Source: Clostridiales bacterium (GTDB lineage: Bacteria; Bacillota; Clostridia; Lachnospirales; Lachnospiraceae). From it: DNA of 64,000 nt. Each line of letters begins with the position of its first letter. Position 1 is the stretch's first letter. The stretch is taken from contig JAJBVD010000034.1 of the NCBI GenBank assembly GCA_020859985.1, positions 1 to 64,000 on the forward strand, written 5' to 3'. The notes under the pieces were generated by a model. That model had not been told where the DNA came from and made no database searches. It saw only the letters and a program-made list of their open reading frames with translations. The translations under genes and the position numbers were made by a program. Of this stretch, positions 45,468 through 51,234 are shown in pieces.

Positions 45468-46556
45468 TCAGCCCACCTCCTTTGCTGCCGCTTTCCTGCT
45501 CTTGCTGATCTGGGAGAGTTTTTCCTTCACGACTGGAGAGCTGAACACGATCAGCAGGATTACGACGACTGCCTTGTACGCCGGAAGGGCGTCCGAAGAT
45601 ACCTTGAACTTGTAAAGGGTCGTTGTCAGAAGCTGGATGACATAGGCCGCTACGATGGAAGCCCAGATATTGAACTTACCGCCGCCCAGGCTGTTGCCGC
45701 CCAACGCTACCGCGAGGATAGCGTCCATCTCGATATTCTGCGCCACTACAGAATAGTTGATCGTCGAAGTCCGGCTGCACTTAATCAGAGCCGCGACCGC
45801 AACACATACGCCCAGAATCACGAAGGACAAAATCTTGATAAACGCCGGCTTTAAGCCGTTCAGCTTTGCCGCGTTCTCATTGATACCAACAGACTGAATA
45901 TAAAGGCTCAGATTTGTAAATTTCATCACCAGTGCGATCACGATGATGCACAGGATCGCGATCAGGAACGGAGTCGGAACCGGGCAGCCCGGGATAAATC
46001 CGCCAAAGTATGTAAATACTTTACCCGGCACGATCGGAAGCTGGTTGTTATTGATCCAGGCTGCGATCGAGCGCCCTGCCGTATAGAGGATCAGGGTTGC
46101 GATCATCGGCTGAATGCGGAACGTAGCGACCAGAATGCCGTTAAAAGCGCCGCAGAGCATGCCCACCAGAACCGCTACGAGGAAACCGAGAATGATCGGC
46201 GCCGCAAGCGAGGACGGGCTGGATTCCGTACCGCAGAGGATGCGCAGCATCGCACTGCCGCTGATGGCGATCGTCGCGCCAACAGAGATATCCTGTCCGC
46301 CGGTAGCCGCCGTTACCAGCGTCATGCCGATTGCCAGAATGGCCAGCTCAGAGCCATTGTTCAGCGCGGAGATCAGGTTGCCGGAAAGCACCGGATTGCC
46401 GTCACTGTTTGTACCCAGCGTGATTCGGAAAAATGTCGGGTCCATAATAAGGTTAAATACCAGAAGCAGCGCCAGAGCAACCAGTGGAATCATCATCTGT
46501 GAGTGCAGAAGGCTGCTTAAAGGGTTTTGTTTTTTTGCAGTAGCATTCTTTGCCAT
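45468..46556 (-). CDS. Sugar ABC transporter permease (YtfT-like)
   Basis: A 362-residue permease with about nine membrane helices; MIPLVALALLLVFNLIMDPT opens the membrane part, and the coupling segment reads SVGINENAAKLNGLKPAFIK. TAATG joins it to the ATPase gene (one-base overlap), so translation is coupled. The next permease begins 1 bp after its stop. Part of the presumed galactofuranose-type importer; the sugar is inferred from gene order and binding-protein similarity. Confidence 0.88.
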   Translation of the reverse strand: MAKNATAKKQNPLSSLLHSQMMIPLVALALLLVFNLIMDPTFFRITLGTNSDGNPVLSGNLISALNNGSELAILAIGMTLVTAATGGQDISVGATIAISGSAMLRILCGTESSPSSLAAPIILGFLVAVLVGMLCGAFNGILVATFRIQPMIATLILYTAGRSIAAWINNNQLPIVPGKVFTYFGGFIPGCPVPTPFLIAILCIIVIALVMKFTNLSLYIQSVGINENAAKLNGLKPAFIKILSFVILGVCVAVAALIKCSRTSTINYSVVAQNIEMDAILAVALGGNSLGGGKFNIWASIVAAYVIQLLTTTLYKFKVSSDALPAYKAVVVILLIVFSSPVVKEKLSQISKSRKAAAKEVG

Positions 46557-48073
46557 TATGCCTCGTCACCTCCCGCAATCGTACTCATGATCTTGTTCTG
46601 ATTCAGATCATCGCCTGTCAGCTCGCCGACCATCTTGCGGTCACGCATCACGACAAGTCTGGAACAGGTACGCAGCATCTCGTCCGTCTCCGAGGAAATG
46701 AACGTGATGCTCATGCCCTCCGAAGCAAGCTTCAGCACCAGCTTCTGAATCTCTGTCTTGGTACCGATGTCAATGCCTCGCGTCGGCTCATCCAGGATCA
46801 GATACTCCGGATGCGCGAACAGCCAGCGCGCCACGATTACTTTCTGCTGGTTGCCGCCGGACAGCGATTTGATCGGCGTATCCTGCGAAGCCGTCTTGAT
46901 CTCAAGCAGCTTGATATATTCGTCCGCAGCCTTCTCCGCCTCCGCCCTGGAGAACGGTCTGCAGAACCCGCGAAGCACCTGTGCCGCGAGGATCAGATTC
47001 TCCCTCACAGAAAGATCACCGATGATACCGTCGCCCTTGCGGTCCTCCGGAAGATAGGCGATACCATTCTTCATCGCTTCAAGCGGATTGGTGATCTTCA
47101 CATCCTTGCCCTTGATCTTCACCTTTCCATTGGTCACATGATCCGCACCGAATATCGCACGCACACACTCGCTTCGGCCGGAACCGAGAAGTCCGGTAAA
47201 GCCGTTGACTTCGCCCTTCTTGATATAAAAATCAAACGGCTGGATACCCGCATTGCTCTGCAGGCCTTCCGCCTCATAAAATACGGTGCCGGCGCCTTCG
47301 CCTGTGTACTCCTGTCCCTCGCCCTTAATCTCGGCCATGTCGTCCAGATCCTTGCCAAGCATTTTAGAAACAAGCTCTACACGCGGAAGATCTTCGATCA
47401 CGTACTCTCCGACCAGCTTGCCGTCTCTTAAGACCGTGATCTTATCACAAACCTCATAAACCTGATCCAGGAAATGCGTAACAAAAATAATTCCCACGCC
47501 TTTCGCTTTCAGATCACGCATCAGGCCAAACAGTTTTTCCACTTCCTGCTCATCCAGAGAGGAAGTCGGCTCATCCAGAATCAGCACTTTACAGTCCATG
47601 TCAACCGCGCGCGCGATCGCTACCATCTGCTGGATCGCTATTGAACAGCTGGAAAGCTGCTGTGTCGCTTTGGCCGGAATCCCCAGAGATTCCAGAATAC
47701 GGTTCGTATCCGCATTGATCTTTCTCCAGTTCTGTCTCCAGCCCTTTTCACGACCAATGTACATATTTTCTGCAACCGTCAGATTGGGGCAGAGCGTGAT
47801 CTCCTGATATACCGTGCTGATTCCCAGGTCCTGCGCATCCTGCGGAGAACGAATGGAAACAGCGCCGTCCCTGCCCTTCAAATAGACATCGCCGCCGTCT
47901 TTGTTATAGACGCCGGTCAGCACCTTGATCAGAGTCGATTTTCCGGCTCCATTCTCTCCCATCAACGCATGAATCTCACCCTCGCAGAGTGTAAAGTCCA
48001 CATTCTGCAGGGCGAGCACACCGGGAAAGCTTTTGGTGATGTTTTTCATTTCCAGTACAGCGTTTTCTTTCAC
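46556..48073 (-). CDS. Sugar ABC transporter ATP-binding protein (YtfR-like)
   Basis: A 505-residue double-ATPase typical of monosaccharide importers. The first domain has GENGAGKST near residue 40, SCSIAIQQMVAIARAVDM as a weak signature and LILDEPTSSLD. The second has a degenerate Walker A (GLLGSGRSE) and LSGGNQQKVIVARWL with LILDEPTRGID. Usually only the first P-loop is fully active. It is separated from the binding protein gene by a 173-bp structured element that begins at the binding-protein stop codon. Confidence 0.92.
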   Translation of the reverse strand: MKENAVLEMKNITKSFPGVLALQNVDFTLCEGEIHALMGENGAGKSTLIKVLTGVYNKDGGDVYLKGRDGAVSIRSPQDAQDLGISTVYQEITLCPNLTVAENMYIGREKGWRQNWRKINADTNRILESLGIPAKATQQLSSCSIAIQQMVAIARAVDMDCKVLILDEPTSSLDEQEVEKLFGLMRDLKAKGVGIIFVTHFLDQVYEVCDKITVLRDGKLVGEYVIEDLPRVELVSKMLGKDLDDMAEIKGEGQEYTGEGAGTVFYEAEGLQSNAGIQPFDFYIKKGEVNGFTGLLGSGRSECVRAIFGADHVTNGKVKIKGKDVKITNPLEAMKNGIAYLPEDRKGDGIIGDLSVRENLILAAQVLRGFCRPFSRAEAEKAADEYIKLLEIKTASQDTPIKSLSGGNQQKVIVARWLFAHPEYLILDEPTRGIDIGTKTEIQKLVLKLASEGMSITFISSETDEMLRTCSRLVVMRDRKMVGELTGDDLNQNKIMSTIAGGDEA

Positions 48074-48157
48074 CCGTGTATCACCTCTTTCTTAAGAAAA
48101 CGCGGTGCAGGCCCGCTGCACCGCGCGAATTTCTGTTACATATTTTGTTTCTTTTTA

Positions 48158-48330
48158 TGATAATACTACGGATTGCTACGTGCTTACGCACTCTCGCAAT
48201 CCTAAAAGCATTCGGAATCCGCTCATTTTTCTTCGAAAAATGGCTACTTCCTCATGTTTTTGGCGGTCCCAAAGTTCATAAATACGAATGCCAGCATTCG
48301 ATTTATGAACTTTTGTCCCTTGTATTATCA
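48158..48330 (-). ncRNA. Structured intergenic element, copy 1 (between binding protein and ATPase genes)
   Basis: On the minus strand it runs from TGATAATAC, which includes the stop codon of the binding-protein gene, to GTATTATCA; these ends pair over 9 bp. Inside are three hairpins: GTTCATAAAT/ATTTATGAAC with CGAATGC/GCATTCG (48274-48310), CATTTTTC/GAAAAATG (48224-48242), and GGATTGC...GCAATCC enclosing GTGC-GUAA-GCAC (48170-48202). Linkers AAGGGACAAAAG, GGGACCGC, ATGAGGAAGTAGC and GAGCGGATTCCGAAT match the copy at 49813-49992. No protein is encoded. RNA or mobile element is not settled. Confidence 0.65.
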
Positions 48331-49302
48331 GATACCGTAGTTGTCTACGTCTTCCTGTGTGATGGTCGTAGCGTCAAAGCCAACCTCTACAGAATAGATA
48401 ACCTTCTCCTCAAGCTCTTCGCCAGCCTCAAGCTGCTGGATGATCTCGTTGATCGTATCTGCCTGGAACGGGTTGCACTGTCCATCATAGTTCCAGTTGC
48501 CTGCAAGCAGCTCTTCCAGAGCCCACTGGTTGCAGTCAAAGCCCATAACGATAACATCGCCGTCAACACCATGTGTGATACCAGCTGCGTCAAGAGCTGC
48601 AACAGCGCCCTTCGCCATATCGTCGTTCTCTGCATAGATTACGTTGAAAGAATCACCGGAGTCGATCACAGACTGAACAATCTCCTGAGCGGTCTCTGCA
48701 CTCCAGTCAGCAGACTGCTGTACTACATAGTTCCATGTATCATTCGCTTCTACTGCCTCGTCAAGAGCGGTCGTACGGCCGATCTGTGGGTCAGAACCCA
48801 TAACGCCCTGAATGTGGATAATGTTGTACTCATCAAGGCCCTGCTCGGTCATCCAGTTCACTGCTGTCACGCCTTCTTCTGACATATCAGATACAACAGC
48901 TGCTGCGTAAAGCTCTTCGTCTGCATCCAGCATACGGTCGAACAGGATAACGGTGATGCCCATCTCCTGTGCGGACTCCAGAACGTCGTCCCAGCCAGTG
49001 GTATCTGCTGCAGAGATCAGAAGGTAGTCAACCTCATCCGTGATGAAGCCCTCTGCTGCCTGGATCTGCTCTTCATTCTCAAGGCTGTAGAAGAAAGAGG
49101 TCTCATATCCGTTCTCATTATCCTCGCCGAAAACTTTCTCGAAGTCTGCAACGTTCGCGGTACGATAACCGGACTCGTTCGGGTCGTTGTTGATGATACC
49201 AACGGTAATCACGTCTTCCTCTGCGGAAGCAATCGTTGCGCCGCTCATCAGGCCCATCGTCATAGCGGATACACAAAGAACTGCCATAAGTTTACGTTTC
49301 AT
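48328..49302 (-). CDS. Sugar ABC transporter substrate-binding protein (YtfQ-like)
   Basis: A 324-residue secreted periplasmic-type binding protein with signal peptide KRKLMAVLCVSAMTMGLMSG. LISAADTTGWDDVLESAQEM, followed by ITVILFDRMLD, parallels the E. coli galactofuranose-binding YtfQ, and VYAENDD-type VIYAENDDMAKGAVAALDAA is present. It lacks a lipobox cysteine at the cleavage site, unusual for a Gram-positive binding protein; it may be held by other means. GCGAGGAATT precedes ATG at 49302. First gene of the importer operon, with a promoter at 49397-49424. Confidence 0.9.
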   Translation of the reverse strand: MKRKLMAVLCVSAMTMGLMSGATIASAEEDVITVGIINNDPNESGYRTANVADFEKVFGEDNENGYETSFFYSLENEEQIQAAEGFITDEVDYLLISAADTTGWDDVLESAQEMGITVILFDRMLDADEELYAAAVVSDMSEEGVTAVNWMTEQGLDEYNIIHIQGVMGSDPQIGRTTALDEAVEANDTWNYVVQQSADWSAETAQEIVQSVIDSGDSFNVIYAENDDMAKGAVAALDAAGITHGVDGDVIVMGFDCNQWALEELLAGNWNYDGQCNPFQADTINEIIQQLEAGEELEEKVIYSVEVGFDATTITQEDVDNYGI

Positions 49303-49396
49303 AATAAATAATTCCTCGCTTTCTTTAAATATGCTCTGCGGCCGCGAACAAACTCCGATTATCTGGCACAGCCGCGTTTCGTTGTTTCTATCTGTA

Positions 49397-49424
49397 ATTT
49401 TAACAAATATGAAATAAAAGTCAA
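49397..49424 (-). promoter_or_regulatory. Promoter of the sugar ABC operon
   Basis: TTGACT (49419-49424) and TAAAAT (49397-49402) are 16 bp apart on the minus strand, about 95 bp before the binding-protein start. The surrounding sequence is AT-rich. Confidence 0.6.
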
Positions 49425-49697
49425 CCGTATTTTTATCTTTTTATACAGTTTCAGCTTTTCAAACAATACAAATTATTTTGGATTTCTTATAAATTCAATA
49501 CAATTTAATCCTGATTCTTTTTTTCTTTCAAAAAATGGGGAAAATTTTTTGTATGATAAAAAAATCGGTTGATTTTCTTTTGCTTTTCCTAAAACGTTCC
49601 GGGACAAATCCGACCGTTTCGTTGTGGTGATTTTTTCTAAATTGAAATCCAGACCGGCATTTTCATAAATTCCGGAAGAGAAAATTTTTATCCCATC

Positions 49698-49770
49698 GAA
49701 ACTGTTCTATACTTTCATAGTTACGACAGAAAAAGCTTTATTCGTAACTGTGAAGGTACTGAACAGTTAC
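49698..49770. repeat. Two family A palindromes in inverted orientation
   Basis: AACTGTTCTATACTTTCATAG (first 20 bases of interest at 49702) and GTAACTGTGAAGGTACTGAA with its end at 49770 are two 27-bp family A copies facing each other across an 18-bp spacer. They can pair with each other as one long stem. This stretch lies between the two divergent promoters of the sugar locus. Confidence 0.6.
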
Positions 49771-49784
49771 ACGGGTTTTAAAGC

Positions 49785-49814
49785 TTGACATTTTACCTGA
49801 ATTCCGGCTATATA
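49785..49814 (+). promoter_or_regulatory. Promoter of the GntR/LacI-type regulator gene
   Basis: TTGACA at 49785-49790 and TATATA at 49809-49814 are 18 bp apart; TATAAT at 49811-49816 is an alternative with 20 bp. The start would fall near 49822, so the 5' strand of the structured element's terminal helix overlaps the -10 and would not be in this transcript. Confidence 0.6.
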
Positions 49815-49992
49815 ATGATACAAGGGACAAAAGGTCAGGAATGGAACGCTCGCGTTCCTATTCATGACCTTGGGGACCGCAACAATATGAGGAAGTAGCC
49901 ATTTTGGCTAATATGTTAGCCAAAATGAGCGGATTCCGAATATTGTTAGGATTGCGAGAGTGCGGAGCACGGAGCAATCCGTGGTATCATTA
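49813..49992 (+). ncRNA. Structured intergenic element, copy 2 (leader of the regulator gene)
   Basis: Same architecture as 48158-48330 but on the plus strand: ends TAATGATAC/GTATCATTA; hairpin GGTCA.GAAT/ATTC.TGACC with GAACGC/GCGTTC; hairpin CATTTTGGCT/AGCCAAAATG (49910-49926); hairpin GGATTGC...GCAATCC enclosing GTGC-GGA-GCAC. Stems differ from copy 1 on both strands while linkers are kept. TAATGATAC recurs at 50015-50023, right before AGGAG. It lies in the 5' untranslated region of the regulator, sense orientation. Confidence 0.65.
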
Positions 49993-50076
49993 CCCTTTTG
50001 CTGCTCGAATCATATAATGATACAGGAGATGCAAAAGCCAAACATTTATGAAAGTGATATTAAACCAGAGAACACT

Positions 50077-51234
50077 ATGGAAGTCAAATACAAGGCTCTC
50101 GCCGAATCACTGAAAAAAGAAGTCACCCGCAGGGGACCGCTTGGAGATCAAAAGCTTCCGACCGAAGCGGAGCTTATGCGCGCCTATGGTGTCAGCCGCC
50201 AGACCGTGCGGCAGGCGCTCTCCCTCCTGCATAAGGAAGGATGGATTGAAAAACGGCAGGGCAGCGGTACTTATATCGCGCCCGGACTGTTTCCGAGCGC
50301 TCTTTCTTCCCATGATATCGCCATACTTGTGCCGGACGTCGCCGGATACCTTTCCCGCTACCACATTGGTGAGACAGAAACCGTCCTGAACGAAGCAGGA
50401 TATTCTACAGCAATCTACAACACAGAGAATCACACATTCAGAGAAAGAGAAATCCTGCGAATCCTGCTGGACCGGCCTGTCCGCGGGGTACTCGTGCGGG
50501 GTGTGCGCACTGCGTTTCCGAACCCGAATATTTGTCTCTATCGGGAACTGATCTCGCGCGGTACCGTTATTGTTTTTCTCGGTGAAGCATATCCCGAACT
50601 GCAAAATAACAGTAAAACAGATTTCCAGACACGGAGCCTGTCAGATAACAATCATAACACGCACACACAGAATTCATTCAGCAAAAATTCCGTGCTTCAG
50701 ATATCCTCCGATGATTTCGGGGGCGGCGAGCTGCTGGCCCGACACCTGATTGAACTGGGGCATAAAAAAATTGCCGGGATCTTTCGTCTCGACGATCACA
50801 GCGGTCCGGCCCGCTACGCAGGTGTGCTGCACGCACTCTGTGAAAGCGGTCTCAGCTTTGACGACCGGGATTTCCTGTGGTACGACCCTCTCAACGTACG
50901 GATGCCCGATTCCAGAGTACTGCTCTCCTTTATCCGCATACAACTCGCCGGGTGCACCGCAGCCGTCTGTCAGGATGACACGATAGCAGCAGCGCTGATC
51001 CGGGAACTGCAGCGCCTCGGAATGCCGACCCCGCAGCGTTTCTCTGTGACCGCTTTTGCCTCTGCCAGGGAGACCAGACCATCAGACCGCATCACCAGCG
51101 TTTTCCGTTCGAGCCAGGATCCATGGCATATTGCAGCAGATCTGCTTCTGAACAGGCTTGCCGGTAAAACAGTCTCTTCCGTATCCTGCCCATGGATGCT
51201 TTTGCCTGGAGAAAGCACCGGAACGGTAAATTAA
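50077..51234 (+). CDS. GntR-type HTH with LacI-like sugar-binding domain (AraR-like)
   Basis: A regulator with a winged helix at about residues 1-70 (QKLPTEAELMRAYGVSRQTV then GSGTYIAPG) and a periplasmic-binding-like effector domain from about 80 on (DIAILVPDVAGYLSRYHIGE, DDFGGGELLARHLIELGHKK). This is the AraR type of sugar repressor. The frame extends back to 49960; ATG at 50077 (386 residues) fits the family best, but its ribosome site is weak, and ATGs at 50017 and 50029 are possible. It is divergent from the sugar ABC operon, the probable target. Confidence 0.85.
   Translation: MEVKYKALAESLKKEVTRRGPLGDQKLPTEAELMRAYGVSRQTVRQALSLLHKEGWIEKRQGSGTYIAPGLFPSALSSHDIAILVPDVAGYLSRYHIGETETVLNEAGYSTAIYNTENHTFREREILRILLDRPVRGVLVRGVRTAFPNPNICLYRELISRGTVIVFLGEAYPELQNNSKTDFQTRSLSDNNHNTHTQNSFSKNSVLQISSDDFGGGELLARHLIELGHKKIAGIFRLDDHSGPARYAGVLHALCESGLSFDDRDFLWYDPLNVRMPDSRVLLSFIRIQLAGCTAAVCQDDTIAAALIRELQRLGMPTPQRFSVTAFASARETRPSDRITSVFRSSQDPWHIAADLLLNRLAGKTVSSVSCPWMLLPGESTGTVN

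Follow-up and report, generated by a model that had tools for sequence, protein, structure and literature searches.

Short non-autonomous mobile repeats such as BOX, RUP, ERIC and NEMIS fold in RNA and sit in untranslated regions (UTRs), and the element described here is like them in this general description. In the Bacillus cereus group, the intergenic repeats bcr1 to bcr3 are described as MITE-like, variable in copy number and often placed in UTRs or between the genes of an operon, and conserved secondary structures are described for bcr10 and bcr18 (PMC3446304, PMC6542083). By the same descriptions, the mobility of the bcr repeats is tied to a TTTAT motif, whereas the type I elements reported below lack such a bcr1-type end motif and have 7-bp duplications of the form ATNNNAT; the hosts differ as well.

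Clostridiales-1 RNA (RF01699) is typed by Rfam as 'Gene; sRNA'. Weinberg et al. 2010 (PMC2864571) listed the motif as probably an RNA and probably not cis-regulatory, and gave Clostridiales and the human gut as its taxa. The main text of that paper uses 'mobile' 0 times, 'repeat' three times and 'transpos' once, and these uses do not appear to concern the Clostridiales-1 motif. Listings from a literature search of openly accessible main texts showed no paper that treats RF01699 as mobile. The family is thus a known one, but it has no assigned function. What is new here is its mobility; the RNA's role we infer.

We analysed a stretch of 64,000 nucleotides of a Lachnospiraceae genome (contig JAJBVD010000034.1), hereafter called the window. 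The initial annotation, made from the sequence alone, had noticed two copies of a structured element at a sugar-import locus and knew no named RNA class that fitted. The two copies are indeed present, share the quoted linkers and keep their helices paired despite differing sequences, but the claim that no named class exists was wrong. Comparison with Rfam identifies both as RF01699, each covering model positions 1-166 of 166 and scoring above the cut-off of 48 bits (cmscan, Table 1). They agree in 139 of 178 positions (columns 73-250 of alignment A1, roughly the element), and the genome of the window has eight RF01699 matches over the cut-off and one weak match. The Rfam model stops inside the element: around copy B, a right inverted repeat and flanking ATATAAT duplications, which the initial annotation had not reported, lie outside it.

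Table 1. Features of the window at the two RF01699 copies and their neighbouring genes.
Feature	Position	Strand	Remark
ABC-transporter ATPase gene, downstream of copy A	46556..48073	-	
GC-rich hairpin then T-run between copy A and ATPase gene, terminator-like	48100..48126	-	consensus match only
Copy A including the extension of P1 into the flank, TGATAATAC / GTATTATCA	48158..48330	-	stop codon of the binding-protein gene makes up its first three bases
Copy A, RF01699 Clostridiales-1 RNA	48161..48327	-	116.8 bits
Sugar-binding protein gene (Peripla_BP_4), ends ATC TGA at copy A	48328..49302	-	
Promoter-like site: TTGACA 49785-49790, TATATA 49809-49814 (spacer 18)	49785..49816	+	by eye, alignment of relatives
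Left target-site duplication ATATAAT, overlaps -10 region	49810..49816	+	
RF01699 Clostridiales-1 RNA of copy B	49816..49989	+	123.2 bits
Copy B, complete 195-bp element	49817..50011	+	
Left terminal inverted repeat GATACAAGGGACAAAAG	49817..49833	+	12/17 agree with right repeat
Right terminal inverted repeat CTTTTGCTGCTCGAATC	49995..50011	+	
Right target-site duplication ATATAAT	50012..50018	+	
GntR / periplasmic-binding-domain regulator gene, downstream of copy B	50077..51234	+	

To characterise the element we oriented 137 copies of the genus with their flanks, which are the best-scoring listed matches and not a random draw, and added the top scorers of 30 genomes that represent 29 other genera. 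Copies were sorted into classes I, A and II by regular expressions defined in this analysis. In the largest class, 80 of the 167 copies surveyed, the RNA lies inside an element of 182-263 bp with terminal inverted repeats (GATRCCAGGGTCAAAAG...CTTTTGACCCCAACATC, or the variant left end seen in copy B) and a target-site duplication of 7 bp, sometimes 8, with the consensus ATNNNAT. No right end was recognisable in 37 of the 167 copies, copy A included. The interior folds into a closing stem and the hairpin domains P2, P3 and P4. In many copies (e.g. L299 and L306) a hairpin, GGGGTCAAAA/TTTTGACCCC, lies immediately inward of the right end and gives the right repeat a local pairing partner in addition to the left repeat.

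The duplications were tested in two ways. In 40 of 133 genus copies (four of the 137 had too short flanks), the hexamer that precedes the RNA is found again in the 80 bases that follow it, against 5.4 when the pairing of flanks was shuffled (maximum 14 in 1000 shuffles), and the offsets of these recurrences are constant within lineages. In an independent test the right inverted repeat was located before the flanks were compared. It was found (at least 11 of 17 bases) in 58 of 86 type I genus copies, whose flanks agree exactly over 7 bases in 26 cases and over 8 in four. Exact agreement over 3, 4, 5 and 6 bases occurred in 0, 2, 0 and 1 cases, that over 1 and 2 bases being trivial (12 and 38). 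At least six of seven bases agree in 34 of the 58, against a shuffled mean of 6.5 (maximum 16 in 2000), a high mean that results from the AT-rich target; in the other 24, five or fewer of seven agree in the 7-bp register. With the copies of the other genera included, the right repeat was present in 80 of 117 copies, of which 34 have exact 7-bp and seven exact 8-bp duplications. The exact 7-bp duplications have T at position 2 in 34 of 34 and A at position 6 in 33 of 34.

The ends were also found in named sequence records, picked by the right end alone, which gave at least 80 right ends. Among the 80 listed, a left end lies within 260 bp in 31 cases, only about 3-3.5 kb away in two and not in reach in 47; 16 of the 31 paired ends are flanked by an exact duplication, of 7 bp in 15 cases and 8 bp in one. 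The titles of the listed records include Coprococcus comes, Enterocloster bolteae, Faecalicatena orotica and many Lachnospiraceae metagenome-assembled genomes. In nine genomes the 17-base end occurs 153 times, against one occurrence of the reversed pattern.

Copy number varies widely between relatives. In the genus, 40 of 47 genomes have matches over the cut-off, and the number of scored matches ranges from 0 to 44 (at most 47 candidates were scored per genome). RF01699 is found patchily across the family, in 177 of 397 sampled genomes (at most seven candidates scored per genome). In a sample of the phylum, four of 398 genomes pass; all four belong to this family, and the window's genome is among them. 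The 14 control genomes have no RF01699. We found no match in 72,556 plasmid records and partial matches in eight of 50,697 phage records, while viral contigs gave 6, 3 and 1 matching stretches, among them one (L269) that by eye is a full copy.

These observations make it likely that the largest class of RF01699 is the body of a non-autonomous DNA transposon (MITE) of Lachnospiraceae with a selected fold. As in a MITE, copy B has inverted repeats and the duplication ATATAAT, and copies are many and differ in number between relatives. A transposase supplied in trans would act on the element ends. Of the three possibilities raised in the initial annotation (a cis-regulatory RNA, an mRNA-stability element between cistrons or a miniature mobile element under structural selection), the last is best supported, by the repeats, the duplications, the copy number and the covariation described below. 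Duplications, a match to a known RNA family and a lack of covariation beyond background had all been named there as outcomes that would speak against its description. The former two were observed, and the covariation check gave the opposite of the latter.

Comparisons at single loci are less clear. Four relatives (G019, G020, G018 and G008) are without the element at locus L152, but about 100 bases of adjoining host DNA differ there too. At locus L154 the empty-site alignment is blurred, and at locus L006 we saw a remnant in G010 and none in G016. Locus L154 also contains, at about 1922-2104, a repeat of about 180 bp with many copies, mostly 85-98% identical, in 12 of 13 genomes among the matches listed.

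Shortened elements help to delimit what movement needs. We fetched 20 regions in which only part of the element is matched. Nine of them hold a derivative that is always exactly 93 bp long and has an identical deletion; they represent seven sites, since three are orthologous, and one of the nine comes from the window's genome (L321). This derivative keeps the ends and the first hairpin and is without the middle and 3' domains. Exact 7-bp duplications flank five of the seven sites, and the remaining two agree in six of seven bases. Two more derivatives, of 122 and 56 bp, have exact duplications, and the other regions have single ends or could not be resolved. Repeated deletion after insertion is conceivable, but one junction shared by seven sites would more simply be explained by a mobile derivative. 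Since the 93-bp derivatives have their own duplications, transposition probably does not require P3 and P4 in cis, and these domains would then be conserved for another reason. At one locus (L457), where 3.5 kb separate the two ends and a mini-element occupies one of them, inspection of the interval by eye recognised no transposase. A short hairpin repeat (GGTGCTGAACG...CGTTTAGCACCGACCG.AGCGGAGCG.AGAC) was seen nested in four Clostridiales-1 copies (L200, L201, L218 and L333).

We searched for an autonomous partner. The loci examined had no inverted end pairs more than 330 bp apart and 44 lone left ends; the other left ends examined were mostly truncated copies. No end pair (at most four mismatches) surrounds the gene in 30 of 54 DDE_Tnp_1 matches examined, where our script recovered the ends of other insertion sequences with 6-9 bp duplications; L341 has two four-mismatch hits, the left one inside the gene. 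At Transposase_mut genes there was no end pair (at most four mismatches) in 24 of 24 matches, and the scattered five-mismatch hits at these loci were taken as chance.

The 47 of the 167 copies without type I ends form class II, a remainder of the regular expressions that also holds some type I-like copies (L144, L164). It includes three copies of the window's genome (L003, L006 and L008). The motif TTTAC occurs within 14 nt upstream of 23 of the 47, a looser parallel to the TTTAT of the bcr repeats as these are described, and class II copies (L003, L006, L189, L193 and others) are often followed by GGTGCCTGC...GCAGGCATGAAAGTTTA. They may use another mobiliser.

The position of copies relative to genes was analysed with our own script for calling open reading frames; 15 of the 167 copies lie at edges. 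None of the 152 with neighbours called on both sides lies inside a called ORF. After three copies were dropped from the count by class and orientation, 74 complete copies have genes on both sides: 25 have both genes in sense, 25 both in antisense, 15 are divergent and nine convergent. Hence, there is no orientation bias in complete copies, and a sense-only role is not general. The initial annotation had each copy in the sense direction of the following gene, which is true of the two window copies and fails as a general rule; the constant orientation expected of a cis-regulatory leader or riboswitch was not observed. Type I copies, with or without a right end, do have a preferred place: where a sense gene lies upstream within 300 bp, 34 of 54 are at its stop codon, whereas this is far rarer for control ATNNNAT sites of the same loci within the same distance (106 of 1016). 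In six of the 34 the stop codon overlaps the element, and the insertion itself may have created it. The placement is most pronounced where the right end is missing (18 of 22, against 15 of 34 complete copies and five of 23 in class II).

Copy B lies in the -10 region of the regulator promoter and would be a 5' leader, so that this promoter should now read into the RNA. An alternative -10 box, TATAAT at 49811-49816, would have a spacer of 20; the promoter-like site is absent from the listing of the consensus scan. The TTGAC...TA promoter is conserved in seven relatives (G009, G010, G007, G015, G016, G017 and G012), none of which has a full element at this site. G010 has a long 5' remnant, and the sequences just after the promoter in G007 and G015 (GATACAAG) and in G012 (GATACAAGGG) may be further remnants; the alignment gave no convincing trace of the element in G009. 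Given these remnants, the insertion dates back at least to the split between G000 and G010 and is perhaps much older. No clean empty site for copy B was found among the aligned relatives. Upstream of the promoter, the window has an imperfect palindrome (49691-49776) that is absent in G010, G009, G007, G015 and G016 and is perhaps another small mobile repeat. Matches to miRNA families at 49685-49782 are far under the cut-off and were rejected, this region being the palindrome.

At copy A we saw neither a right terminal inverted repeat nor a target-site duplication. In the alignment of relatives, the whole element is present at this site in G015, eight relatives have 5' or end fragments (G007, G016, G009, G010, G020, G021, G008 and G014), G035 and G044 have 3' parts only, and no element was seen in G037, G038, G039 and G042. 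The aligned relatives gave no clean empty site, fragments being kept. We read copy A as an old insertion that appears to be decaying in most lineages. Between G000 and G015, six paired positions differ, which make three compensatory pairs and no broken one, while 12 of 69 unpaired columns, flanks counted in, differ as well; replacement by another copy could mimic such compensation. Copy A would have lost its right end and, lying directly 3' of the stop codon, would be co-transcribed with the transporter genes. This location between cistrons makes a role at the mRNA level possible, most likely as a structural shield or stability element in the transporter transcript. A hairpin similar to the terminator-like one that follows copy A was found in aligned relatives. 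Pieces of the form CGTAACTGTGA...CAGTTAC, like the palindrome upstream of copy B, occur at site A of G015 and G016.

Both window copies are predicted to fold strongly. The minimum free energy is -69.5 kcal/mol for copy A with extended P1 (z = -9.1) and -81.3 kcal/mol for the whole of element B (z = -7.9), with none of 200 shuffles as good in either case. For the structure test, 163 of the 167 copies passed the length filter and 38 of less than 80% identity were used. RNAalifold gave 28 pairs, for which 96.5% of 1056 cells are paired, against 75.1% in shuffles, and 25 of the 28 tested pairs have two-sided changes (242 such cells against 67 in shuffles, which ignore relatedness). Slid versions of the fold are far below this, with 26 to 40% of cells paired. 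P1 and lower P2 remain out of register in the sequence alignment and were therefore left outside the test. By the comparison of these copies, the pairing of the fold is under selection, with covariation for the tested pairs. G-U pairs are 11 of about 1019 paired cells (about 1%). This is low for an RNA, and it does not favour a constraint purely at the RNA level. Copies that share a site, copy A and its orthologue in G015 among them, add to the picture. One orthologous pair without a right end (L005 and L025) keeps its stems fully, with compensatory differences, a second old group (L017, L018 and L148) has one compensatory, two one-sided and three broken or gapped pairs, and the copies of four other orthologous groups are too alike to tell.

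Several explanations compete with the reading of RF01699 as a mobile element, or bear on what its fold is for. Because the fold and covariation are strong, and because Rfam types the family as an sRNA and the 2010 listing considers it probably RNA and probably not cis-regulatory, one could see Clostridiales-1 as a stand-alone regulatory sRNA gene, occasionally duplicated, whose inverted repeats are its terminal stem. We regard this as highly unlikely: the precise 7-bp duplications lie outside a second inverted repeat that is beyond the Rfam model, a genome may have up to 44 scored copies, and no common promoter was apparent by eye in the 45-base flanks of 137 copies. A sugar-responsive riboswitch or leader specific to the transport locus was suggested by the position of both window copies next to sugar-transport genes, and L006 also precedes a gene similar to the ATPase gene of the window. 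The family-wide range of the RNA is hard to reconcile with a special link to sugar transport, as are relatives in which the same transport genes have fragments or nothing at site A and no full element at site B. We reject this explanation as extremely unlikely.

If RF01699 is mobile, the selected structure might be a feature of DNA, with single-stranded or extruded hairpins used in transposition, and not of RNA. The scarcity of G-U pairs and the unbiased orientation of complete copies are in its favour, but the shortened derivatives move, it seems, without P3 and P4, and compensatory differences persist between the orthologues L005 and L025, which have no right end; we hold it to be unlikely. 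The element could also be a pure parasite whose fold only limits the harm of insertion (e.g. polar effects), without a role for the host and with copy A decaying, and this is a reasonable candidate to which we give less than even weight. It would agree with the eight relatives that keep only fragments at site A and with the location of all 152 scored copies outside called ORFs, but less so with the stems fully kept in L005 and L025, the L017, L018 and L148 group being mixed. We tentatively propose, as a possible though doubtful extension of the mobile-element reading, that the MITE carries a structured RNA cargo, most of whose fold would be unnecessary for moving, and that copies at stop codons were taken over as 3'-UTR modules, losing the right end and remaining next to the gene while compensation kept the stems.

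Were this extension true, RF01699 would be a mobile source of ready-made transcript-end elements. The contrast between the full element, the 93-bp derivative and the right-end-less copy at a stop codon offers a way to tell the needs of the transposon from a role of the RNA. A family filed since 2010 as an RNA gene without an assigned function would gain a concrete biology, namely that it moves, and RF01699 counts and the sRNA annotation of these gut bacteria would have to be read accordingly.
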